Part shown: positions 7,366-43,748 of the stretch, one piece after another
How positions within the stretch are numbered: position 1 is the first letter of the stretch
Layout: each line of letters begins with the position of its first letter
Assembly: GCA_037481655.1 (NCBI GenBank)
Contig: JBBFLF010000018.1
Location: 1-50,095 of the forward strand
From: Desulfobaccales bacterium
Lineage (GTDB): Bacteria > Desulfobacterota > Desulfobaccia > Desulfobaccales > 0-14-0-80-60-11
Direction: 5' to 3'
Length of the DNA: 50,095 bases
The notes under the pieces: model-generated
The model's input: the letters and a program-made list of their open reading frames with translations, nothing else
Databases searched by the model: none
What the model was told of the DNA's origin: nothing
Translations under genes and position numbers: made by a program

Positions 7366-8226
7366 ATGCGGAGATTGCCCCCTTGGTTCTGGCTCATTCT
7401 GGCCCTGGTCTTCGGCACCACGGCCACGGTGATGGCACTGGGCTGGCTCAAAGGCCAGTCGCAGCAGCAGGCCCGGCAGCAGCCGGCCATCAAGCTCAGG
7501 CCGGTGGTGGTGGCGGCCAAGGATATTGAGGCGGCCAGCGCCCTGTCGCCGGAGCAGGTGGTGATCCGCCACTGGCCCCAGGAGAGCTGCCCCCCGGGCA
7601 GCTTCATGCGTCCGGAGGAGGTGGCGGGCCGGGTGGCAGCCTCCCAGTTCAAAGCCGGAGAGCCCATCCTGGAGGTGAAGCTGGCCCCCCAGGGCGCCAT
7701 GGCCGGGCTCACCGCCCTGCTGGGTCCGGAGAAGCGGGCCATGACGGTGAAGGTGGACGAGGCCTCGGGAGTGGCGGGGTTCCTGGCCCCGGGTAACCGG
7801 GTGGATGTGGTGGCCACCATCGACAAGGGGGAGTTCAACAAGGATCCCGTCTCCAAGGTGGTGCTCCAGAACCTGAAGGTCCTGGGGACCGGCCAGAGCA
7901 TTGAGCGCCGCCCCGGGGACAAGCCCCAGGTGGTACCCACTGTCACCCTGGAGGTCACCCCGGAGGAGGGGGAGCGTCTGGCCCTGGCCGCCCGGGAGGG
8001 CTATGTCTCCCTGGCCCTGCGCAACCATGCCAACCAGGAGGTCATCCAGACCAGCGGCGTGAAGACCACTCACCTGGTGCAGGGTCCCGTATCCTCCGGC
8101 GTGACGGGGGAGGGTAACGGCAACTCGGGACGTTTGTCGGGGCCCCGCCCGGTGGAAGTCATCCGGGGTCTGGATGTCAAGGTGCAGAAGGTGCGGCCGG
8201 AGGGGTCCTCCATCGCTCCTCTCTAA
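7366..8226 (+). CDS. cpaB: Flp pilus assembly protein CpaB/RcpC
   Basis: The 286-residue protein has one N-terminal membrane segment (about 7-25) and a SAF-like domain (PVVVAAKDIEAASALSPEQVVIRHWP, about 44-69), followed by the CpaB C-terminal beta domain with GFLAPGNRVDVVATI near 140. CpaB/RcpC sits in the periplasm and is thought to support the outer-membrane secretin. GTG 7357 is an alternative start, but GGAG at 7354-7357 is correctly spaced for ATG 7366. The secretin gene cpaC/rcpA normally follows cpaB; here it is absent. Confidence 0.92.
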   Translation: MRRLPPWFWLILALVFGTTATVMALGWLKGQSQQQARQQPAIKLRPVVVAAKDIEAASALSPEQVVIRHWPQESCPPGSFMRPEEVAGRVAASQFKAGEPILEVKLAPQGAMAGLTALLGPEKRAMTVKVDEASGVAGFLAPGNRVDVVATIDKGEFNKDPVSKVVLQNLKVLGTGQSIERRPGDKPQVVPTVTLEVTPEEGERLALAAREGYVSLALRNHANQEVIQTSGVKTTHLVQGPVSSGVTGEGNGNSGRLSGPRPVEVIRGLDVKVQKVRPEGSSIAPL

Positions 8227-28982: not shown

Positions 28983-29830
28983 CACAAGCCCTCATAGAGT
29001 TCCGGAAACTGGTTCTTCCAACGGCGGTGCAGCCACAGCCACTGCTCCGGCGCCGCCCGCACCCAGGCCTCCACCGCCCGGCTCTGTTCTTGGAGGTGAT
29101 GCCGGATGTCCGCCTCAACGTCGTCGGTCTTTTCCAAGGGCAGGCGGGGCAGGAAAGCCAGGAGGTGCCGGCCATCCGGCAGGCGTCGGGAGAATACCGG
29201 AAGGACGGGCACTCCTCGGCGCCGGGCCAAAATTGCGGCCACCGGGGTGGTACGGGCCGGCTTGCCGAAAAAGTCCACCAACAGGCCCTCGCCGGGGGCG
29301 GTATTCTGGTCAATGACAATTCCCACGATGCGGTTCTGCTTCAGGTGACTCAGGATGTCTTTAAGCCCCCCCTGTTTGTTGATCATGACATTGCCGCAGC
29401 GCTCCCGCAAACGCCGGGCCAGGGGCCGAAGCCACGGCTGGCTGAGCTCCCGGGCCACCACCGCCACCGACCCGTACTGCAGGCCCTGCCCCACCACAGT
29501 GTACTCCCAGTTGCCGGCGTGGGCGGCAATGGCGATGAGACCTTTGCCTTCCGCCAGGGCCGCCTGAAAATGCTCCTGGCCCACGATCACCACCTTTTTC
29601 TTGATGACCGGCAGGGGCAGGACCGCCAGTTCCGCCAATTCCAAGGCAAAGCGGGCAAACTGCCGGAAGACCTCCCGGGCCACACGCTCCCTTTCTTTGG
29701 GACTCAGTTCCTCGCCATAGGCAAAGGCCAGGTTGCGGCGCACGATCTCCCGATGGCGCCGGTCCAGCCGGTACCACAAATCCCCTGCCAGATCGCACAG
29801 GCGCTCCCGCACAGCGAAAAGGAGTCTCAC
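28982..29830 (-). CDS. Lipid A biosynthesis acyltransferase (LpxL/HtrB-like)
   Basis: The 282-residue protein matches the LpxL/LpxM family (LPLAT). It has the catalytic HX4E motif HAGNWE at about 104-109, the conserved IDQN segment (VGIVIDQNTAPGEG) and TPVAAILARRRGVPVLPVF. It adds a secondary acyl chain to lipid A or a similar lipid at the inner membrane. The frame is open to 29929, but GTG 29830 overlaps the upstream glycosyltransferase stop (GTGA) and has GGAGGGG before it, so I choose it. The absence of a clear N-terminal membrane helix is slightly unusual. Confidence 0.88.
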   Translation of the reverse strand: MRLLFAVRERLCDLAGDLWYRLDRRHREIVRRNLAFAYGEELSPKERERVAREVFRQFARFALELAELAVLPLPVIKKKVVIVGQEHFQAALAEGKGLIAIAAHAGNWEYTVVGQGLQYGSVAVVARELSQPWLRPLARRLRERCGNVMINKQGGLKDILSHLKQNRIVGIVIDQNTAPGEGLLVDFFGKPARTTPVAAILARRRGVPVLPVFSRRLPDGRHLLAFLPRLPLEKTDDVEADIRHHLQEQSRAVEAWVRAAPEQWLWLHRRWKNQFPELYEGL

Positions 29831-32558: not shown

Positions 32559-33920
32559 TCATTTCAAGCCGTACTTTTTCAGCTTGTATCGGAGCATGCG
32601 CTCGCTCAGACCCAGGAGGGCGGCGGCCCGGGTCTGGTGGCGGCCGGTTTTCTCCAGGGCTTCCCGGATCATCCGGCGCTCCAGGTCGGCCACGGCCTCC
32701 GGGAGGGTGGCCGCCCGGGAGAAGGCGACGCTGGCCGGCGGACTGGAGGCTTCCGGAAAAGGCAGATCCTCCCGGGTGATGACGTTGCCTCGGGCAATCA
32801 CCACCGCCCGCTCCAGGATATTCTCCAGCTCCCGGACGTTGCCGGGATAATCGTATTTGATGAGCAGATCCCGTGCTTCCCGGCTGAGGCCGGCGATGGC
32901 CTTGCGGTTGTCTCGGGCAAAGCACTGGAGGAAATGGTCAATCAGCGGGGGGATGTCCTCTCGGCGCTCTCTCAGCGGCGGAATCTTTAAAGTGACCACG
33001 TTGAGGCGATAGAAGAGGTCCTCCCGAAATGAGCCCTGCCGCATCAGGGCCTCCAGATCCCGGTTGGTGGCGCTGATGAGGCGCACGTCGGCTTTCAGGG
33101 GGCGCTCGCCTCCCAGCCGCTGGAACTCCCGCTCCTGGAGAAAGCGCAGCAGCTTGACCTGAATGCTTGAGGGGATTTCACCCACCTCATCCAAAAACAG
33201 GGTGCCGCCATGGGCCTGCTCCACCCGCCCCAGGCGGCGCTGCATCGCGCCGGTGAAGGCCCCCCGCTCATGGCCGAAGAGTTCGCTCTCCAGCAGGGTC
33301 TCCGGGATGGCGGCGCAGTTGAGGGCCACAAACGGCCGCCCCGCCCGGGGGCTCAACTGGTGGATCAGCCGGGCGAAGAGCTCCTTGCCGGTGCCGGTCT
33401 CCCCCAGGATGAGCACCGACGCCTGGGTCGGGGCGATCCGGGCCGCCAGATTGACCAGTTCGGCCATCCGGGGACTTTGGGAGATGATGGCCTCGGCGGT
33501 GACGGTGCGGGCCTGCAGTTCCTGGCGCAAAAGCTCATTTTCCCGTACCAGGGTCCGATGCTCGGAAATGTGGGCGAGGAGGTGCAGAAGTTCGTCCAGG
33601 TCAATGGGCTTGGTGAGATAATCCCGGGCCCCCGCCTTCATGGCGGCCACCGCGGTGTCAATGCTGCCGTAGGCGGTCATCAGCACCGCGTCGATCTCCG
33701 GGTCCAGTCGTTTCGCCTCGTTCATTAACTCCAGGCCGCTCATGCCCGGCATCCTGACGTCAATGAGCGCCAGGTCAAAGGCATGGCGGCGGAGGAGCTC
33801 CAGCCCTGCTTCGCCATCGGCGGCGGCCGCCACCTCATGCCCCTCTTTGCGGAGGAAGTCCTGCAGCATCTCCCGTTGGGAAGCCTCATCCTCCACGATC
33901 AGAATACTCATCGCCCTCAT
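32559..33920 (-). CDS. Sigma-54-dependent response regulator (ZraR/AtoC-like)
   Basis: The 453-residue activator has a receiver domain with Asp54 ([10 protein letters not shown]), a sigma-54 AAA+ domain with Walker A GETGTGKE (173-180), the GAFTGA loop (220-225), Walker [12 protein letters not shown] and [22 protein letters not shown], and a Fis-type HTH ending in [29 protein letters not shown] is intact, so it can remodel sigma-54 polymerase. The frame is open to 34079, but ATG 33920 (GAGGA 7-8 nt upstream) or 33911 starts at the receiver. The kinase gene ends 67 nt upstream. A near-consensus sigma-54 promoter in the same island (36661-36675) is its likely target. Confidence 0.94.
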
Positions 33921-33987
33921 TAGGAAATCCTCAGGAATGTTTGCGTTTGCAGAGAGTTGGCGGGCCCCGCTTCCCCGCCCGGCCCCC

Positions 33988-35751
33988 TTACCCCAAGGGC
34001 AGAAGGATTTCAAAGGTCGTGCCTGTGCCCGGGGCACTTCTGACGCTGATCTCCCCCCCATGAGCCCGGACGATCTCATAGGCGATGGTCAGCCCCAGCC
34101 CCACGCCCTTGGTTTTGGTGGTGTAATAGGGGTCGAAGACGTGCTGCTGCTCCTCGGAAGCCAACCCCCTGCCGGTGTCGGTGACCCTGAGCCGGAGGTG
34201 ATCCTTGCCGGCCGGCGCCGCCGCCAGGGTGATGCTGCCCTCGCCGGTGATGGACTCCAGGGCGTTTTTCACCAGATTGATGAGCACCTGCTGCATCTTG
34301 GGCAGATCCATCGGCACCGGCGGGCAGCCGGCGGCGCTCTCGACTTGGAGGTGAATGCCCCGGGCCCTGGCCTCCTCCTGCATCAGGGACTGGGTTTTCC
34401 GGAGGAGCACCTCCACAGGCTGGGGGCGAAGGTCCAGCCGCCCATCGCGGGACAGGCTGAGGAAATCCTCCACAATGGCATTGAGCCGGCCGATCTCCTC
34501 CCGCACCACCTGGGTCAGCCGCTGGAACTCCTGCTGCTGCTCGTGGTCGGCGGCCTTGAATTCCCGCTTCAGCCGCTGCACCGCGATGCTGATGGCGTTC
34601 AGGGGATTGCGGATTTCATGGGCCACGCCCGCCCCCAGCTTGCCCAGGGAGGAGAGGCGCTCGGCCTGATGCAGGCGCTCCTGCATGGCCTGCAGGCGGG
34701 CAAAATAGCGGCTCTGAAACGAGAAAAGCAGCACCATGGCCACCAGGCCGATGGCGATCATCACCCCGGTCCAGATGAAGATGTGCCGCCGGTTCTCCCG
34801 GATGAGGGCATCGGTCTCCCGGGTCTTAAGTCCCACCCGGGCGGTGCCGATGGTTCGGCCTTCCCACCGGAAGGGCGCCGTCAGTTCCAGGACCCTCATC
34901 TCCCCCACCTCAGTGCAGCGGACGTCCATCACCCCCGGCCCGGGGGCAGGAGAGGCCGGGAGCCGGCACACTCTCATAGTATTAGTCGGAATGGCGCCCT
35001 CCTGGGCCAGGAGCTGCCCTTGGGGGGTCTCCAGGAGAAAGTAGGCCAACGCCTCGCTGACGGCAAATTCCCGCAGGGTCTCCTGGATGGCGGTGCGCCA
35101 TCCCCAGAACTGAAGCTCCTGGGCCCCGAGGAGGAGGAAAACCGCCCCTTTCCCCTCCAGGCGGCGCAGCCCGATGAACCGCACCCCCACGGAGGGGTCC
35201 ACGGGATGGAAGAGATGCAGGGAGACCTCTTCCCGCCCTAAGAGGAGGGGCGCAGCCCAGACCTCCAATTGTGTCAGACCGCGGCCGGTCTGACCGCTGA
35301 TCCGGCCGTCGGCAGCCAGAATCACGATGCCCAGGAGGTTCTCGGCTACGGCGAGCCTCTGGAGCTCCGCCGCCGAGAGGTCATTTTCCTGGTCCTTAAG
35401 GTCCAGATGGCGGGCCAGGTCCAGCAGGGAGCGGGCCAGAGTTTCCTGCAGCGACAACTCCTCCTCCCCGCCGCCAAGGCCTGGGCCTCCCGGGAAGGAG
35501 GCCTCCCCGCCCCCCCACAGGAGACGCCGATATTTCTCCTGGGAGGCCTTCTCGAGAGCGTGCACCATGGCCGCGGCCCGGTTGTGCAGCACGGTGAGGA
35601 GCAGCCTTTCCGTGCGGCCCAGGTCCATGAGGGCCAGGACGCAGAACAGCGCCGCAAAGAGGGAGAAGGCCAGGGCGGTGGCCAGGGGCGGGAGCAGCCG
35701 GCGCCTCCCGCCGGCGAGCCCGGAGGTGCTATCCTGAGCCTCCCCCCTCAT
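33988..35751 (-). CDS. Membrane sensor histidine kinase (ZraS/NtrB-like)
   Basis: The 587-residue kinase has membrane helices at about 21-43 and 324-345 around a large periplasmic sensor region (about 44-323), then a dimerisation domain with phosphoacceptor His378 in GVAHEIRNPLN and a HATPase_c domain (N box LVKNALESI, G1 VTDTGRGL, G2 GLGLTIAYEIV). It most likely phosphorylates the adjacent sigma-54 regulator. It overlaps the upstream Spy-like gene by 4 nt (ATGA), linking a periplasmic Spy-like protein to the kinase, as ZraP is linked to ZraS in enterobacteria. The signal sensed is unknown. Confidence 0.93.
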   Translation of the reverse strand: MRGEAQDSTSGLAGGRRRLLPPLATALAFSLFAALFCVLALMDLGRTERLLLTVLHNRAAAMVHALEKASQEKYRRLLWGGGEASFPGGPGLGGGEEELSLQETLARSLLDLARHLDLKDQENDLSAAELQRLAVAENLLGIVILAADGRISGQTGRGLTQLEVWAAPLLLGREEVSLHLFHPVDPSVGVRFIGLRRLEGKGAVFLLLGAQELQFWGWRTAIQETLREFAVSEALAYFLLETPQGQLLAQEGAIPTNTMRVCRLPASPAPGPGVMDVRCTEVGEMRVLELTAPFRWEGRTIGTARVGLKTRETDALIRENRRHIFIWTGVMIAIGLVAMVLLFSFQSRYFARLQAMQERLHQAERLSSLGKLGAGVAHEIRNPLNAISIAVQRLKREFKAADHEQQQEFQRLTQVVREEIGRLNAIVEDFLSLSRDGRLDLRPQPVEVLLRKTQSLMQEEARARGIHLQVESAAGCPPVPMDLPKMQQVLINLVKNALESITGEGSITLAAAPAGKDHLRLRVTDTGRGLASEEQQHVFDPYYTTKTKGVGLGLTIAYEIVRAHGGEISVRSAPGTGTTFEILLPLG

Positions 35752-36179
35752 GGTTCCCCCTCGAGGCTGGGAGAGAACGGGGGCTTACGGCCGCTGAACC
35801 AGATGCGTCGCTGCTCGGGAGTCAGGACCGCCCGGATTTTCAGGTAGTAATCCGTGGTGGTCTCCTGGCATTGGAGCCACAGGCGCCGCAATTCCGCCGC
35901 CTTGCTCCGGATGGCCTGCTCCTCCGCCTGAGGGTTGGCCAGGGCGGCTTTGAATTCCAGGCGCTGGGCCAACAGCCGGCCGCGCAGCTCCTGGAGCCGG
36001 CCCAAGTACTCCCCTTCAATTTCCCTCAGGGCCTGTTCCTGTGCCGGGCTGAGCCCCAGACTTTGCCCGGCTAAAGGGGAAGCGGGCCCGGGACCCCGCT
36101 TGCCTGGCTGGGCCTCCAGGTTGCCGCACAGGCACACAAACGCCACCAGCCAGCCGCTTATGAGGCCGCGCCACCTCAT
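35748..36179 (-). CDS. Spy/CpxP/ZraP-like periplasmic protein
   Basis: The 143-residue protein has a signal peptide (about 1-23, ending LEAQPGK) and a helical domain with two LTxxQ-type motifs (LSPAQEQAL near 45 and VLTPEQRRIWF near 118), the signature of Spy/CpxP/ZraP periplasmic chaperone-adaptors. It heads the operon with the kinase and regulator; by analogy to ZraP it could repress the kinase, which is inference. Start: ATG 36179 with GGAG upstream; a GTG one codon earlier is possible. An extended -10 (TGTGATAAT, 36329-36321) about 140 nt upstream could be its promoter. Confidence 0.8.
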   Translation of the reverse strand: MRWRGLISGWLVAFVCLCGNLEAQPGKRGPGPASPLAGQSLGLSPAQEQALREIEGEYLGRLQELRGRLLAQRLEFKAALANPQAEEQAIRSKAAELRRLWLQCQETTTDYYLKIRAVLTPEQRRIWFSGRKPPFSPSLEGEP

Positions 36180-36456
36180 CACATCTCCTGACTCGGCCAG
36201 GGAGAACCCGGCCCCCTTTCCCCCATCGGTTTCAGCAGCCTGGGAAGGAGCCCGCCTGCCGAAAAGATAGGGAAACCGCGCCGGCTCCCCCCCAGGGCAT
36301 CATTTCCAACCCCGCTTCATATTATCACAGTGGCCGCCCCCAACGCTGCCATCGGCCCCGGGGCAATGGCACTGTTCCTCCCTTTCCGGGAGTAATTCCT
36401 CCCGGCACTCCTGTTCCGGCCGCGGCTTCACGGTCTGGAAACCGCCCAGAGCCTCC

Positions 36457-36472
36457 TCGACATTTTCGTCGA
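36457..36472. promoter_or_regulatory. Dyad 1, TCGAC-N6-GTCGA, candidate regulator site
   Basis: TCGAC (36457-36461), six bases, GTCGA (36468-36472). It shares the core CGAC-N6-GTCG with dyad 2 (36590-36605), 133 nt away. Between them lies an AT-rich stretch (about 36490-36530) able to bend or accept IHF. The whole 36180-36688 interval has no gene. Confidence 0.5.
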
Positions 36473-36589
36473 AGGCCGCCACCAACCGTGTCGATTTTAT
36501 AAGTGCCTATATTTTTTAAAAATATTCTCATCTCTGTTTCTGCTCCTTCGACAATCCTTGCCGGACCGGTTGGCGGAGTGCCTCAAGGG

Positions 36590-36605
36590 GCGACGGCGCT
36601 GTCGC
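36590..36605. promoter_or_regulatory. Dyad 2, GCGAC-N6-GTCGC, candidate regulator site
   Basis: GCGAC (36590-36594), six bases, GTCGC (36601-36605). It is about 55 nt upstream of the sigma-54 -24 box, a normal distance for an enhancer-binding-protein site. The inner six bases are also nearly palindromic. Confidence 0.5.
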
Positions 36606-36660
36606 AATATTTTCACAGAGTTTCAGATAGTTATATCTTCCCTGGCCGCGCCTCCGCTGA

Positions 36661-36675
36661 TGGCACATAGCTTGC
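36661..36675 (+). promoter_or_regulatory. Sigma-54 (-24/-12) promoter before the Spy-like gene at 36689
   Basis: TGGCAC (36661-36666), five bases, TTGC (36672-36675). The GG and GC elements are exactly 12 nt apart, and all ten key bases fit TGGCAC-N5-TTGC. The predicted start is about 36687, 2 nt before ATG 36689. Confidence 0.75.
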
Positions 36676-36688
36676 CTCCGCAAGGGGC

Positions 36689-37174
36689 ATGAAACTCGCG
36701 TGCCGGTTTTGGGCCCAAGGCAGGGGCATATGCAGGGGGGCAATTCTCCTCCTCCTGCTGCTGGCGCTGGCAGCGGGTCGCCAGGCTGACGGCCAGCCCT
36801 GGGAGAGGGGCGCAGACTGGTGGCGGGACCCCCGCCTTGCGTCAGAGCTCCGCCTGGACGCAGACCAGCAGGCAAGGCTGCAGTCCCGGCACCAGGCCCT
36901 GACGGAAGAGCTTATCCCCCTCAGGGACCGGCTTCTGGGCGCCAAGATGGAGGTGAGGGCCCTCATGTCCCACGCCCGGCCCGACCGCAGCCGCATCGCC
37001 GCCAAGCAGCAGGAAGTTCTGGCCCTGCGCGGCCGCCTACAGGAGCTGCTCATCGCCTATTGGCAGGACTGCCAGGACATCCTGACCCCAGAGCAGCGCC
37101 GGAAGCTGGCCAACCTGCCGTCCGGGCGGGGCTGCCCCTGGTGCGGTCCCGACCGCGGTGGCAGAGGCCGCTAG
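36689..37174 (+). CDS. Spy/ZraP-like periplasmic protein with C-terminal CPWC motif
   Basis: The 161-residue protein has a signal peptide (basic n-region to about 17, hydrophobic ILLLLLLALAAG, cleavage near 30-34). It has the helical Spy pattern RIAAKQQEVLALRGRLQELL and LTPEQRRKL near 134. It ends GRGCPWCGPD: a CxxC motif in an oxidising compartment that could bind metal or act in thiol exchange. The CcdA-like gene is next. Its promoter is the sigma-54 site at 36661-36675, which places the start codon close to +1, so the message may be nearly leaderless. It diverges from the Spy-kinase-regulator operon. Confidence 0.78.
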   Translation: MKLACRFWAQGRGICRGAILLLLLLALAAGRQADGQPWERGADWWRDPRLASELRLDADQQARLQSRHQALTEELIPLRDRLLGAKMEVRALMSHARPDRSRIAAKQQEVLALRGRLQELLIAYWQDCQDILTPEQRRKLANLPSGRGCPWCGPDRGGRGR

Positions 37175-37229
37175 CCCGGCCCTGGGTGGACCGGCCTGGC
37201 AGGAAAAATTCATCCCGCGGAGGAAGAGC

Positions 37230-37964
37230 ATGGGTCCCTTGGAGGCTTATGTGAATGCCGGCTTTCCGGCAGTGGTGGCTGTCATCTTCAGTCTCGGTCT
37301 GGTGAGCGGCTTCAGCCCCTGCGGCCTGCCCACCGTGGCCCTGGTAGTGGGCTATGTCAGCCGCAACGGCACCCACGGCCGGGCCAACGGCTTCATGGTG
37401 GCACTCTGCTTTGTGCTGGGGATTGCCACGGTGCTGACCCTTCTGGGCGGGCTGTCCGGACTTCTCGGGGGGCTGTTGGTGCCCAGCCAGGCCGTGTTCG
37501 CCAAGGGGTCGGTGGGCCTGAAAATCTTTCTCGCCGGGGCTTCCGGGATTTTCATCCTCCTGGGCCTGTGGATGCTGAAAATCATCAATTTCCACGGCTT
37601 CAATCTCATGGGCCGCATGCAGGTGGAAAAAGGGAGCGGCGCCCTCGGAGCCTTCCTGCTGGGGCTGCCCTTCGGCATCGCCGCGTCGCCCTGCACCCTG
37701 CCGGTCACCATTGCGGTCCTCATTTATCTGGCGGCCAGAGGTGATGTCCTGGGCGGCATGTTTTTCATGTTCATCTTTACCCTGGGAAGAAGCATCCCCA
37801 TCCTGGTGGCCGGCACCTTCACGGGCTTGTTGGCCAAACTGCACGGCTTTGCCCGGTGGCAGCTTGCCCTGGAGAAACTGGGCGGCAGCGTCATGGTGCT
37901 GATCGGGGTCCATTTCATCCTGCGCTCGGTGCTGAAGATCAATTACCTCAAATTATTCTCCTGA
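37230..37964 (+). CDS. CcdA/DsbD-like transmembrane thiol-disulfide protein
   Basis: The 244-residue membrane protein has about six hydrophobic segments and the two CcdA-type half-sites FSPCGLPTVALVVGYV (near 27-42) and ASPCTLPVTIAVLIYL (near 157-172), each with the redox Cys-Pro context. CcdA-type proteins pass reducing power from cytosolic thioredoxin to periplasmic thiol proteins. ATG 37230 (GGAGGAAG upstream) is preferred over the open frame to 37158. It follows the CPWC-ending Spy-like gene by 55 nt, which suggests that protein as a possible client; this is inference. Confidence 0.85.
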   Translation: MGPLEAYVNAGFPAVVAVIFSLGLVSGFSPCGLPTVALVVGYVSRNGTHGRANGFMVALCFVLGIATVLTLLGGLSGLLGGLLVPSQAVFAKGSVGLKIFLAGASGIFILLGLWMLKIINFHGFNLMGRMQVEKGSGALGAFLLGLPFGIAASPCTLPVTIAVLIYLAARGDVLGGMFFMFIFTLGRSIPILVAGTFTGLLAKLHGFARWQLALEKLGGSVMVLIGVHFILRSVLKINYLKLFS

Positions 37965-38027
37965 CCGGGGGCGGACGTAAGCCCGCCTGTGAGGCCAGGA
38001 GCCGCCGGAAGCAGAGGCAGAACCTCC

Positions 38028-38477
38028 ATGGAACGGCACCACCTCCTCTACCTGCTGGCCTTTTCCCTGAGCCTCAATCTCGGGGCCTTGGGCACCCTGG
38101 CTTTCCTGCACTTCGGCCGGGGCCAGGAGTCTGGGGGGCTGAAGGCGCACCCGGTGCCGCCTTCGGACGTCTGGCGGCCTCTGCACCTGAGCCCCGGACA
38201 GCGACAGGCAGTGGAGGGCCTTCTGGGCGCACACCGCCGGCGGATGCGGGAACTGCAAAGCCTCATTGCCCGGGAGAGAGAGCAGCTCCTCGCGATTATC
38301 CGGAGGGGCGAGCCCGCCTGGCCCGAGGTGCAGGCAAGGGTCCGGAGCATCAATGATCGTCAGGCGGAGCTGGAGGAAGCCGTGGTGGTTCTCTTCCTGG
38401 AGACGCAGAAACATTTCACCCCGGAGCAACGGCGTGCCTTCGGAAAAATCCTGGAGGCGCGGGTGCCGGCACGCTGA
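38028..38477 (+). CDS. Membrane-anchored Spy/CpxP-like protein
   Basis: The 149-residue protein has an N-terminal hydrophobic segment (about 5-25) that is more like an uncleaved anchor than a signal peptide. The rest is helical with LSPGQRQAVEGLLGAHRRRMRELQSLI and FTPEQRRAFGKI, the two LTxxQ-type motifs of the Spy family. GAGG precedes ATG 38028; an in-frame ATG at 37989 lacks a Shine-Dalgarno. It lies 63 nt after the CcdA-like gene. The tandem Spy-like genes suggest a periplasmic chaperone array. Confidence 0.75.
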   Translation: MERHHLLYLLAFSLSLNLGALGTLAFLHFGRGQESGGLKAHPVPPSDVWRPLHLSPGQRQAVEGLLGAHRRRMRELQSLIAREREQLLAIIRRGEPAWPEVQARVRSINDRQAELEEAVVVLFLETQKHFTPEQRRAFGKILEARVPAR

Positions 38478-38561
38478 GGCGGCCTGCCGGCCGGTCCGGG
38501 ACTGATCCAGCCGGCAAAAACCGACATGCAAGGAAGAACCACACCCAAGGAGGACAAGCGA

Positions 38562-38981
38562 ATGGATACGTGGTCTCGGCGTTTAAACGTGGCGTTGCTG
38601 ATGGTGGCGGTGGCCCTGGCTCTGGGCTTGATGGCCCTGGAGGTGGCCTATGCCCAGCCCGGCATGGGTCCCCGGGGGGCCGGCCTGACGCCGGAACAGG
38701 CGCAGAAAATCTATGAGCTGCGCCAGCAGTTTCTGAAGGAGACCGAGGATCTGCGCCAGCAGATGTTCACCAAGCGCACTGAACTGACCAACCTCTGGGC
38801 TGCGGAGAACCCGGATGAGAAGCAGATCCGGGTCAAGCAGCAGGAGATCAACGCCCTGCGGGACAAGATCCAGGCCATCGCGCTGAAATACCAGACCCAG
38901 GCCCGAAAGATCGCGCCCAATGCCTCGTTCGGCTGGGGCGGCAAGAAGGGCATGCGCGGCGGCCCCTGGACCATGTGGTAA
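38562..38981 (+). CDS. Spy/CpxP-like periplasmic protein
   Basis: The 139-residue product has a signal peptide (about 1-32, ending VAYAQP), LTPEQAQKIYELRQQFLKETEDLRQQMFTKRTEL and KQQEINALRDKIQAIALKYQ. This is the same layout as the next gene (39000): LTPAQSS, FFHDTADLRRQMVQKRAEL and KQKELNALRGQLQQ. The two are evident tandem paralogs. AAGGAGG precedes ATG 38562, so the in-frame ATG at 38526 is not used. The C-terminal GWGGKKGMRGGPWTMW tail is Gly/Trp-rich. Confidence 0.82.
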   Translation: MDTWSRRLNVALLMVAVALALGLMALEVAYAQPGMGPRGAGLTPEQAQKIYELRQQFLKETEDLRQQMFTKRTELTNLWAAENPDEKQIRVKQQEINALRDKIQAIALKYQTQARKIAPNASFGWGGKKGMRGGPWTMW

Positions 38982-38999: not shown

Positions 39000-39419
39000 A
39001 TGGTTACCCGGAAAGCCACCTGGATTCTGGTGCCGCTCCTGTTATGGAGCCTGGGGCTGACGGCACCGGCCTTCGCCGGTCCTTGGGGCCGGGGCTGCTC
39101 CGGCTTGGCGGGCGCCACCCCTCTCACCCCGGCACAGAGCTCCCAGATCTTCACCCTCAAGCAGAAATTTTTCCACGACACCGCTGATCTTAGGCGGCAG
39201 ATGGTCCAGAAACGGGCCGAACTGGCGGCCCTCTGGCAGGCCCCCACCCCTGACCAGGCCAAGATCGCGGCCAAACAGAAGGAACTCAACGCCCTCCGGG
39301 GTCAGCTGCAGCAGAAGGGTTTCGCCTTCCAGATGCAGGTGCGGAAGATCGCCCCCGGCGCGGTGCCGAGGTCCGGCTGGGGCCCGGGAGGCAAGCGGGC
39401 CCTGGCTCGAGGCTGGTAA
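39000..39419 (+). CDS. Spy/CpxP-like periplasmic protein (paralog of the preceding gene)
   Basis: The 139-residue protein has a signal peptide (about 1-25, ending APAFAGPW), one Cys in GRGCSG, LTPAQSSQIFTLKQKFF and the repeated pattern QMVQKRAELAALWQAPTPDQAKIAAKQKELNALRGQLQQ, closely matching 38562. It ends GPGGKRALARGW. It starts 18 nt after the previous stop. Several Spy-like paralogs in one locus usually mark adaptation to protein-unfolding or metal stress in the periplasm; the specific stress is unknown. Confidence 0.82.
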   Translation: MVTRKATWILVPLLLWSLGLTAPAFAGPWGRGCSGLAGATPLTPAQSSQIFTLKQKFFHDTADLRRQMVQKRAELAALWQAPTPDQAKIAAKQKELNALRGQLQQKGFAFQMQVRKIAPGAVPRSGWGPGGKRALARGW

Positions 39420-39507: not shown

Positions 39508-39951
39508 ATGACCATAAGAGGCGCACTTTTTGTCCTTCTTGCCGTCTTGCACCTGGGTGTCGGCTTTCCGCCGGCTTCCCTGGCCCAAGGGGGCTGGAAG
39601 CGCTGGGGCCCCGTCGGCCGGGGCTATGACCCCGCAACAGTGGAGACGGTGGCAGGAGTCGTGGTGCGGGTGGAAAGGCTCCCCTCCGGTAAAGGGCGGT
39701 CCTCGGGCGTGGGCCTCACCCTGAAGACCGAGAAGGAAACCGTGCGAGTGCTCCTGGGACCGGCCTGGTACGTGGAGCAGCAGACCTTTAAGCTGGCGCC
39801 CGGAGATCAGGTGGAAATCACCGGCTCCCGGGTCCTTTACGACGGCCGGCCCCTCCTCCTCGCCCGGGAGGTAAAGAAAAGGGACACCCTCCTCAAACTG
39901 CGCGACCAGACCGGCGTTCCGGTGTGGGCCGGCCGCAAATGGAGCTTGTAG
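39508..39951 (+). CDS. Secreted OB-like protein, family 1 of the island
   Basis: Function not recognised. The 147-residue protein has a signal peptide (about 1-26, ending ASLAQGG) and an all-beta domain containing TVETVAGVVVRVERL, ETVRVLLGPAWYVEQQTFKLAPGDQVEITGSRV and LLLAREVKKRDTLLKLRDQTGVPVWAG. The pattern resembles OB-fold proteins. A paralog lies at 42797 (TVTTVAGEVVRVERV, GDRLTVTGSVV, MHLRDPNGRPAWA). Both end in a conserved LRDxxGxPxWA segment. The partner membrane proteins flanking them (41946, 43297) are also duplicates. Confidence 0.75.
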   Translation: MTIRGALFVLLAVLHLGVGFPPASLAQGGWKRWGPVGRGYDPATVETVAGVVVRVERLPSGKGRSSGVGLTLKTEKETVRVLLGPAWYVEQQTFKLAPGDQVEITGSRVLYDGRPLLLAREVKKRDTLLKLRDQTGVPVWAGRKWSL

Positions 39952-39963
39952 TCCGAGGCTCCC

Positions 39964-41931
39964 ATGTTTCACCGCCTGACCCTGGCGCTGTTGCTGTCCT
40001 GTTTCTGCGAGGCGGCCCTGGCCGGGACCCAGACCGCGGCCGCCGTCTGGCACTATCAGCTGGAGGTCTCCTTCGATATCCCCCAGGCCAGGATCATGGG
40101 GGTGGCAAAAATCCAGGGGCCGCCGGGGCGGCCGTTAACCCTCCACTTCGGGGACCTGAAAGTGAAGAGCATCCGGGGCTTTAAAGAAAAAATCGATCTG
40201 ACGCGGCTCCCGGACTCCCTGAAAGCCGTGCCGTCACGGGACGGCGTGGAGATTGTCTATGAAGGGCGCTTCACGGATCCGGAGGAAAACGTAATCGAGG
40301 CAGGGGAAATCATCCTGAGAAGCATCTGGTATCCGCTGGTGGAAGGGCTCAGCCGGTATCAGTTGACTGCCCGGCTGCCCCGGGAGTATTTGGCGCTCTC
40401 GGAGGCGAACCACATTCACCGGATCGAAAAGGATGGCCAGGCCGTGTACACCTTTGACCTCCCCTTTCCTCTCAATGACCTGGACGGCCTCACCTTTGCG
40501 GCTTCGAACCGCTACCGGGTGGCCCGGGGGACCTATCGGGACATTGACCTCTCTGCCCACCTCTTTCCTGAAGACGCCCATCTCGCCCCCTTGTTCCTGG
40601 AGCAGGCCCGGCGCTACCTTGAACTTTTTGAAGCTCGGCTCGGGTCCTATCCCTACCGGCGGCTGGCCATTGTGGAGAGCTCCCATCCCGGGGCCTTCTC
40701 CATGCCCACCTATGTGCTCCTCTGTCAGAGAGAAATCCAGGACATCCCGCAGGCCGGGGTGGAGCGCACCTCCCTGGGCCACGAGATCCTGCACCAATGG
40801 TTTGGCAACTCGGTGTTTACATGTCATGACCGGGGCAATTGGAATGAGGGGGCGACCATCTATTTCGCCGACCATTTCGCCTGTGAGCAACGGGGCACCG
40901 ACTGGCGCTGCCGCCGCCGCATCCTCTCCGGTTTCCTGAGCCATGTGACCCCCGGAAACTACTTCCCACTGCGGCTCTTTTCGGAACGGACGGATTACTC
41001 CTCCCGCTCCATCGGCTACGGCAAAGGGGCCATGGTCTTCCACATGCTCCGGCGCCTGGTGGGGGACAGGGCTTTTTTCGCCGCCATCAGAGACTTCGTC
41101 CGGGAGCATACCTTTCGGGTGGCCTCCTGGGACGATCTGCGCACGGCCATGGAAAAGAGGTCCGGACGGCCCCTCGGCTGGTTTTTCCGACAATGGCTGG
41201 ATACCACCGGCCTGCCGGTTCTGCGCCTGGAGGAGGTGAAGGTTAAGCCGGTGGGGCAGAAATTCGAGGTGAGCCTGACCCTGGCTCAAATCGGCACCAC
41301 CTTCCGACTGCTGGTCCCCCTCACCTTTCACTCTCCCGGCGGCGCCCATAAAAGATGGGTGACGCTCACCCGGGCCAGGGAGAGGTTCACCTTTACCTTT
41401 GACGCCCGGCCGGAGGAAGTGGTCCTGGATGAGGATGTCGATGTTTTCCGCCGTTTGGACCCGAGGGAAAATCCCCCGGTTTTGGAGAGATTGCTGACCG
41501 GGAAGATAATCGCCTTCCTCCCCCCGCACGGAGCCGAACCGTACCGGCGGATACTGGACTTCCTGCAGCGAGAGGGGATATCGGTCGCCGGCAGGAATTC
41601 CCAGGAGCTGTCCGCAGCCGATGCCGACGCCTCGGTCCTCCTCTGCGGCCGGGATCATCCTCTGGCACCGAAGCTCCTGGGAAATCTGGCCCTGCCTGAG
41701 ACGGGCCTCAGTCTGGCGGTCCGGCAAGACCCCCGGGAACTGGCCCGTCTGGTGGCCGTGCTCCACTGTGCCCCTGGCGAACCGGTGGAGGCCGCCCTCC
41801 GGGAGATGCTTGCTTACCCCTTTTACAGCGACTACCGGTTCCGCCAGGGGCAAAGGCTGGAGCGCACCCTGGAAGAACCCCAAAGGGGCATCCGCGTCAA
41901 ACTGACGGACCCGAGAGGAGGCAAAACCTGA
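39964..41931 (+). CDS. Secreted M1-like metallopeptidase
   Basis: The 655-residue protein has a signal peptide (about 1-21) and an M1 (gluzincin) domain with HEILHQWFG at 273-279 and a downstream Glu295 in GNWNEGATIYFAD. The spacing HExxH-X17-E is one residue shorter than the usual X18. Where M1 exopeptidases have GAMEN it has GAFSM, without the Glu that binds the substrate's N-terminus, so aminopeptidase activity is doubtful. Residues about 510-640 form an extra domain (PHGAEPYRRILDFLQREGISVAG...LLCGRDHPLAPKLLGNL) I do not recognise. It starts 12 nt after the OB-like gene. Confidence 0.85.
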   Translation: MFHRLTLALLLSCFCEAALAGTQTAAAVWHYQLEVSFDIPQARIMGVAKIQGPPGRPLTLHFGDLKVKSIRGFKEKIDLTRLPDSLKAVPSRDGVEIVYEGRFTDPEENVIEAGEIILRSIWYPLVEGLSRYQLTARLPREYLALSEANHIHRIEKDGQAVYTFDLPFPLNDLDGLTFAASNRYRVARGTYRDIDLSAHLFPEDAHLAPLFLEQARRYLELFEARLGSYPYRRLAIVESSHPGAFSMPTYVLLCQREIQDIPQAGVERTSLGHEILHQWFGNSVFTCHDRGNWNEGATIYFADHFACEQRGTDWRCRRRILSGFLSHVTPGNYFPLRLFSERTDYSSRSIGYGKGAMVFHMLRRLVGDRAFFAAIRDFVREHTFRVASWDDLRTAMEKRSGRPLGWFFRQWLDTTGLPVLRLEEVKVKPVGQKFEVSLTLAQIGTTFRLLVPLTFHSPGGAHKRWVTLTRARERFTFTFDARPEEVVLDEDVDVFRRLDPRENPPVLERLLTGKIIAFLPPHGAEPYRRILDFLQREGISVAGRNSQELSAADADASVLLCGRDHPLAPKLLGNLALPETGLSLAVRQDPRELARLVAVLHCAPGEPVEAALREMLAYPFYSDYRFRQGQRLERTLEEPQRGIRVKLTDPRGGKT

Positions 41932-42796: not shown

Positions 42797-43252
42797 GTGA
42801 GAAAGTCAGGAGCCTTGATCCTGCTGGCTTTACTTCTGGCCAGCCTGGCGGCCGGCGTTCCTGCGGCCTGGGCTCAGAAAGGCCGGCGTCTGCATTACAG
42901 CACCCTTTTCAACCCTAACACCGTGACCACGGTTGCCGGGGAGGTGGTGCGCGTGGAGCGGGTCCTGGCCGGAAACGGCGCAGACTATTGCGTCCTGACC
43001 CACCTCAAAACCCCCCAAGGCCTGCTGACCGTGGTTCTGGCCCCCCAAGGTTACATGGAGAAGAAGGGCCTCACCCTGGCCCGGGGGGACCGGCTGACGG
43101 TAACCGGCTCGGTCGTCACCATCCTGGGGAAACCCCACCTGCTGGCCACGGAGGTGCGGGGCGACCGGAATATGCACCTCAGAGACCCAAACGGCCGGCC
43201 GGCCTGGGCGGTGGGGGATGATTGGCATGCCCGCAGCAACCTGCGAAAATAA
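42797..43252 (+). CDS. Secreted OB-like protein, paralog of 39508
   Basis: The 151-residue protein starts at GTG 42797 (AAGGA 8 nt upstream) directly before a signal peptide (VRKSGALILLALLLASLAAGVPAAWAQ). It has TVTTVAGEVVRVERV, GLLTVVLAPQGYMEKKGLTLARGDRLTVTGSVVTILGKPHLLATEV and LRDPNGRPAWAVG, in the same order as in 39508. ATG 42707 in frame would add a non-signal basic leader. It is paired with a DUF4405-like gene downstream, as the first OB-like protein is (through the M1-like gene). Confidence 0.72.
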   Translation: MRKSGALILLALLLASLAAGVPAAWAQKGRRLHYSTLFNPNTVTTVAGEVVRVERVLAGNGADYCVLTHLKTPQGLLTVVLAPQGYMEKKGLTLARGDRLTVTGSVVTILGKPHLLATEVRGDRNMHLRDPNGRPAWAVGDDWHARSNLRK

Positions 43253-43296
43253 CCTTACGGGCAGCAGCCGCCCATCTCCCGCCCGGAGGCGGAGCC

Positions 43297-43748
43297 GTGA
43301 ACAGAGCCAAACTCAACTTTGTCATTGACGCCCTGATGTTCCTCTGCATGGCGGCCATTGCCGGACTGGGCTTCCTGATGAAATATGTCCTCGTGCCCGG
43401 CCGGGAAACCCCGCTCCTCTACGGCCGCCGGGTGGACCTCTTCTTCCTCGGGCTGGACCGCCATGCCTGGGGGCCATCCACCTGTATCTGGGGTTCGTGC
43501 TCCTGGCCCTGCTGGCGCTACATATTGTGCTGCACTGGCAGATGATCCCGGGGCTGTTCGCCCGGCTGGTGGGCAATGCCCCCAAGCGCTGGCTCATTGG
43601 CCTCTCTTATGTGGCGCTGGCCGCAATTCTGCTCCTCTTTCCTTTTTTCATCAGCCCCGAGGTCAAGGAGGGCGGCGCCGGTCAGGGACGACGCTTCGGT
43701 GCTTCGGTAAAAGTGGGGCCGGCCGAGGTCAGGACAATGCCGCGGTGA
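43297..43748 (+). pseudogene. DUF4405-like membrane protein gene with a frameshift
   Basis: A GTG start at 43297 (SD GGAGG) begins a DUF4405-like protein NRAKLNFVIDALMFLCMAAIAGLGFLMKYVL...DLFFLGLDRHAWG. After the run of five G at 43469-43473 the frame becomes meaningless, while the family sequence GAIHLYLGFVLLALLALHIVLHWQMIPGLF continues in another frame to a stop at 43746-43748. One more G in the run restores one open frame. So it is either a true frameshift, a sequencing error, or slippage at the G-run. The end of the reading frame, SPEVKEGGAGQGRRFGASVK, is in the restored frame. Confidence 0.8.

Follow-up and report, generated by a model that had tools for sequence, protein, structure and literature searches.

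The question raised by this locus is whether the motif TGGCAC-N5-TTGC found on the plus strand at positions 36661-36675 (TGGCACATAGCTTGC) is a genuine sigma-54 promoter of the Spy-like chaperone genes that follow it, and whether this promoter answers to the regulator encoded in the neighboring divergent operon. The window analyzed here is the whole stretch of 50,095 nucleotides of contig JBBFLF010000018.1, from a Desulfobaccales bacterium (assembly GCA_037481655.1). The explanation best fitting the comparisons described below is that 36661-36675 is very probably the sigma-54 promoter of the Spy-like chaperone operon, activated by the regulator of the divergent operon at the palindrome TCGACATTTTCGTCGA.

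The plus-strand side of the island opens with a Spy/ZraP-like periplasmic protein (36689-37174 as read from the ATG at 36689; Pfam Metal_resist/LTXXQ). This gene is followed by those of a DsbD_TM/CcdA-like membrane protein (37158-37964) and of a second Spy-like protein (37989-38477), both recognized by a domain match, and of a third and a fourth Spy/ZraP-like protein (38526-38981 and 39000-39419), supported by domain and family-model matches. A secreted protein with a weak OB-fold match, below the cut-off (39508-39951), and an M1-peptidase-like protein (39964-41931, domain match) come next, and two DUF4405-type genes and another OB-like protein are found 3' of the latter. On the minus strand, a fifth Spy-like gene (35748-36182, domain match) heads the presumed sensor/regulator operon and precedes a ZraS-like sensor histidine kinase (33988-35751), for which ZraS is the best-matching NCBIfam model, and a response regulator (32559-33923). 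This regulator combines a receiver, a full sigma-54 interaction domain and a Fis-type HTH carrying the recognition helix SERMLRYK, the GAFTGA motif can be read in its translation, and it is an NtrC-type (group I) enhancer-binding protein. Its gene starts about 2.7 kb from the promoter, in agreement with the first-pass annotation, which had placed a sigma-54 activator some 3 kb away in the divergent operon. The plus-strand genes presumably form an operon as well. In the congener G002, the plus-operon side (L135:1220-4005) runs on into an outer-membrane efflux protein and a CusB/HlyD-type adaptor, neither of which was seen in the island of the window.

The core of the motif is exactly as it had been described, with the GG at 36662-36663 and the GC at 36674-36675 located 12 nt apart, and it is the only exact TGGCAC-N5-TTGC of the window. 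In the whole genome, 15 sites combine the exact core with the right spacing, against one for the reversed control, and the same core is found only twice with four spacer bases and three times with six. The enrichment is limited to exact cores with the right spacing, because cores with one mismatch occur at the level of chance (4 found and 4.4 expected in the window) and because the extended consensus YTGGCACGN4TTGCW, when three mismatches are tolerated, is useless as evidence (38 found versus about 43 expected per window). One of the 15 genomic sites precedes a gene whose translation we take to be an ammonium transporter, a classic sigma-54 target. RpoN is encoded once in the genome and its RpoN box, ARRTVAKYR, is intact. 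A lone site with an exact core would, on such grounds, be probably but not certainly functional. The qualification of "near-perfect" previously given to this site is accurate for the core only: three mismatches separate the site from the extended consensus, and it reaches 13.8 on a rough weight matrix built from consensus frequencies, on which some relatives reach 20.3. The site thus appears weak outside its core. Two other matches of the same matrix, a higher-scoring one at 35423-35439 (15.7) and one at 29406-29422 (15.0), were set aside, the former lying within the kinase gene and the latter within an open reading frame.

The congener G002 contains the same locus, with a regulator 80% identical to that of the window. 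In the aligned spacer, its -24/-12 box is TTGGCACCAAGATTGCC, ahead of the orthologous Spy gene; this box and a 16-bp palindrome are kept within a spacer that is otherwise divergent. Across the phylum, strong sigma-54 sites can be observed before the Spy genes at orthologous loci. The initial reading of the motif as a sigma-54 promoter is supported by comparison, through the 15 correctly spaced cores versus two and three with altered spacing, the presence of RpoN and the box of the congener. A different and improbable explanation is that the motif is a chance match and that the Spy operon depends on a sigma-70-type promoter, for example the sequence TTCACA-N16-TATCTT located just upstream of the box, at 36612-36639 (+). 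This single match, where shuffled sequences would produce 0.2, would give the ATG at 36689 a leader of normal length, and chance cores do exist, as two to three sites with a wrong spacing are found per genome. In G002, however, conservation extends to the -24/-12 box but not to the -10 hexamer of this match, and a promoter of this type leaves unexplained both the palindrome and the sigma-54 sites of the relatives.

For the sigma-54 promoter, transcription is predicted to start at about 36687. The first-pass annotation had counted 14 nt between the motif and the first Spy-like gene; 13 bases do separate the box from the ATG at 36689, but this start codon is itself doubtful, because the resulting leader of 2 nt does not fit the relatives, in which the Spy gene starts 30-85 nt past the predicted transcription start and is preceded by a clear Shine-Dalgarno sequence (eight cases read individually). 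The leader measures 41 nt in G002. In the window, an ATG at 36730 preceded by AGGGG would provide a leader of 43 nt in a frame that differs from that of the rest of the gene, and alignment indicates that the G002 copy of this Spy gene is intact. The real translation start is probably not 36689 but lies about 40 nt past the transcription start, around the ATG at 36730. Another gene of the island, of the DUF4405 type (43222-43748), is split between two frames near a G run and is likewise intact in G002. The two frame splits are most simply read as assembly errors in G runs; real frame changes, or a true start at 36689, may also account for what is observed.

The element that makes the regulator-target pair convincing is a candidate enhancer that had escaped the first reading. 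The palindrome TCGACATTTTCGTCGA, at 36457-36472, may serve the response regulator as its upstream activating sequence. The pattern TCGAC-N6-GTCGA is present once in the 2.87-Mb genome, at this very position, while the reversed pattern is present 21 times, and the sequence is identical in G002. The palindrome is placed upstream of the promoter at a distance of 210 bp in the window and of 213 bp in G002. Two half-sites, TGTCGA at 36489-36494, conserved in G002, and TCGACA at 36548-36553, which reads CCGACA in G002, are conjectured to provide possible extra contacts for the regulator. A search for the IHF site WATCAANNNNTTR with one mismatch allowed gave no match between the palindrome and the promoter. 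The circuit predicted from these elements would begin with an envelope or periplasmic signal, in response to which the ZraS-like kinase would phosphorylate the regulator. An oligomer of the latter bound to the palindrome would then contact, by DNA looping, the RNA polymerase-sigma-54 positioned at 36661-36675, ATP hydrolysis would open the promoter, and Spy-type periplasmic proteins would be produced from the transcript starting near 36687.

The relation between palindrome and regulator can be followed across the phylum. The window and G002 served to define the operator motif, which was subsequently examined at other loci. In a first set, which comprised neither the window nor G002 and was limited to loci with at least 6 kb of sequence, the palindrome was sought within 5 kb of the regulator. 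Among the loci with a SERxLRY[KR] helix, 10 of 12 had a match of at least 11/12 to TCGACA-N4-TGTCGA, versus 8 of 74 among those with a different helix (Fisher p 7e-7). L202, which is one of the 10, was retrieved on account of its palindrome, and the proportion becomes 9/11 when it is omitted. With 179 permuted half-sites, a mean of 0.17 and a maximum of 2 SER loci were matched. A held-out set was assembled independently of the motif, from the 62 of 395 phylum genomes containing an ortholog at E <= 1e-150, and comprises 54 new regulator loci, 51 of which are of the SER type. Thirty-six of these 51 carry TCGACA-N4-TGTCGA (at least 11/12), with a full 12/12 in 13 cases, whereas permuted half-sites match 1.03 loci on average and 8 at most; the palindrome is present at one of the three held-out loci with other helices. 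Among the 15 SER loci devoid of an 11/12 palindrome, L256, L260, L261, L263 and L279 are some of those cut by contig ends, and L233, L241, L245, L255, L269 and L271 are not obviously cut. Two of the 36 palindromes, in L236 (2277) and L262 (7292), are not near a promoter and are probably due to chance. When the 49 palindromes of both sets are considered, window and G002 included, 42 are located upstream of a sigma-54 site (score of at least 12) at a distance of 40-350 bp, with a median of 194 bp, versus 85 of 2640 random positions having such a site. Exact copies of TCGACA-N4-TGTCGA in G035, G039, G040, G045, G049 and G053, with neither a Spy gene nor this regulator nearby, were rejected and look like chance occurrences or parts of other systems.

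These results weigh on the possibility that the promoter, although of the sigma-54 type, is served by another activator, the palindrome belonging to some other factor. The genome does contain 20 matches to the sigma-54-activator domain, 18 of them strong and corresponding to roughly 18 full-length activators, and two further regulators are 51-54% identical to the one studied here. The palindrome nevertheless tracks the SER-type helix and was not detected next to related regulators whose helix is of the ITKSLLQYK type. In L253, moreover, the helix reads TRRMLRYK instead of SERMLRYK and the best palindrome becomes TGGACA-N4-TGTCCA (TGGACATTTTTGTCCA, L253:7288-7303), which looks like a natural co-change of regulator and operator, a single case that goes in the direction expected if the helix reads the outer bases. 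Service by another activator is therefore quite unlikely, marginally more so than the sigma-70 promoter. The least probable alternative, that the palindrome mainly serves the autoregulation of the divergent Spy-kinase-regulator operon, with a secondary role for the plus-strand promoter, draws on the position of the palindrome between both operons, at some 275 bp from the start on the minus strand, and on L174, where it lies close upstream of the kinase, but no sigma-54-like site with a score of at least 5 faces the minus operon in 36183-36660, the L174 palindrome is also upstream of a weak sigma-54-like site, ATGGTATGATAAATGCT, preceding the structured RNA described below, and in relatives with Spy genes and kinase on the same strand the palindrome and the promoter are ahead of the Spy genes. 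The direct pairing of the promoter with the neighboring NtrC-type regulator, already proposed from the window alone, is thus strongly supported by comparison, with a palindrome that tracks the regulator helix and stands 210 bp upstream. What was a bare promoter guess becomes a testable regulator-operator-promoter triple, and the regulator helix together with the 12-letter palindrome would constitute a readable code for predicting the regulon in dozens of uncultured relatives.

Some of the palindromes detected in this way are associated with other genes. In G056 (L200 and L201), the palindrome and a sigma-54 site are accompanied by a secreted-protein gene and may point to further targets. The same arrangement, with a sigma-54-like site, can be observed before genes for small secreted proteins in L055, L072, L075 and L201, some of them with repeated DANGDGKCDN-like stretches, which suggests targets other than Spy.

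The closest known counterpart is ZraPSR, the zinc-responsive envelope-stress system of E. coli and Salmonella, in which ZraR controls the divergent sigma-54 promoters of zraSR and zraP (PMC4987338). Both systems associate a Spy/ZraP-type protein, a ZraS-like kinase and an NtrC-type regulator, with the chaperone gene divergent from the kinase-regulator operon and a spacer that contains both a sigma-54 promoter and a palindromic enhancer. The same scan applied to the zraP-zraS spacer of E. coli K-12 detects one sigma-54 site toward each gene, with scores of 17.7 and 13.3, as well as a pair of CGAGTAAAAATGACTCG-type palindromes. The window differs by its operator, TCGACA-N4-TGTCGA instead of CGAGTAAAAATGACTCG, by its recognition helix, SERMLRYK versus ITRKTLLAK in ZraR, and by its promoter layout, since the sigma-54 promoter facing the sensor operon, found in E. 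coli, has no equivalent in the spacer interval scanned above. In addition, several Spy genes together with CcdA-, OB-, M1- and DUF4405-type genes occupy the plus strand, and the kinase operon begins with an additional Spy gene. The equivalog cut-offs of ZraS, ZraR and ZraP are not reached either (231 of 479, 460 of 760 and at most 51 of 200 bits, respectively). Because of these differences in operator, helix and promoter layout, and of models remaining below their equivalog cut-offs, the system is considered to work like ZraPSR but is not filed under this name. It is the AtoC model that gives the regulator its highest score (527.7 bits, for a cut-off of 714); the atoDAEB-type genes of the AtoSC target operon are absent here, the target being instead the Spy operon. 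Comparative prediction of palindromic enhancers and sigma-54 promoters in related bacteria has been reported for the sigma-54 regulome of Desulfovibrio vulgaris (PMC4641369); the main text of that article does not contain the words zra, Spy, heavy metal or TGTCGA. In the literature outside subscription journals, no paper was found on this operator or on the RNA described hereafter.

The fetched stretch contains no Spy gene at 19 of the 54 held-out loci. In ten of these 19, as well as in L056 (Smithella sp.) and L174, the region 3' of the sigma-54-like site is devoid of credible genes and contains instead a conserved RNA, about 95-125 nt long, that ends in a terminator made of a G+C hairpin and a T run. 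This structured RNA, behind the palindrome and the sigma-54 promoter, is located at L056:7770-7892, L174:5329-5444 and L237:352-451 (these three on the minus strand), in L246-L250 (around 7460-7620), and at L253:7508-7635, L244:7444-7564 and L236:7464-7584; L239 was placed in the group by eye and is not a model match. With a covariance model built from eight loci, matches at E <= 1.8e-6 were obtained in 11 of the 70 sources, each of them adjoining the kinase-regulator operon, those outside the training set being L246 (nearly identical to L248), L253 (3.7e-17) and L236 (1.8e-6); L267 (E 0.11) was treated as noise. Eleven of 16 base pairs change on both sides while keeping the pair, which exceeds all 500 shuffles and all slid versions, in an alignment that was fitted to the model, and so favors it, and that includes the noise-level row L267. 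No Rfam family matched at gathering thresholds in the six RNA loci searched. In the 395 genomes, 13 have matches at E <= 0.01, and the nine below 1e-10 are all at RNA-bearing regulator loci. The covariance-model search found no such RNA in the window or in the rest of its genome.

Within a lineage to which Smithella belongs, these same three elements, regulator, operator and promoter, seem to drive a small RNA instead of chaperones. Ahead of its terminator, this RNA has an unpaired CU-rich stretch reminiscent of an anti-Shine-Dalgarno sequence, and such a function is a conjecture. A comparable layout is provided by QseEF (GlrKR) and GlmY, a sigma-54 small RNA located beside its two-component system (PMC6075780, PMC8745638). 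The kinase-regulator operon likewise adjoins a sigma-54-driven structured RNA in the Smithella-like relatives, but this is an analogy only; the RNA, the operator and the neighbors differ. Taken together, these comparisons make it reasonably likely that a phylum-wide envelope-stress circuit distinct from ZraPSR exists, in which SERxLRYK regulators read the code TCGACA-N4-TGTCGA and control Spy operons in most lineages, the module of the Smithella lineage being either rewired toward a conserved structured small RNA of about 120 nt that bears the unpaired CU-rich stretch, or an ancestral branch. If this is true, that RNA would be the sigma-54 counterpart of the enterobacterial envelope-stress small RNAs, and a single two-component module would feed either chaperones or an RNA, with a sigma-54 small RNA outside the well-studied bacteria. 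Both types of locus can be observed in one genome, G057, in which the RNA is found at the kinase-regulator locus (contig C21, L174) and another contig (C6, L142) carries a Spy gene equipped with a strong sigma-54 site (17.4) of its own.
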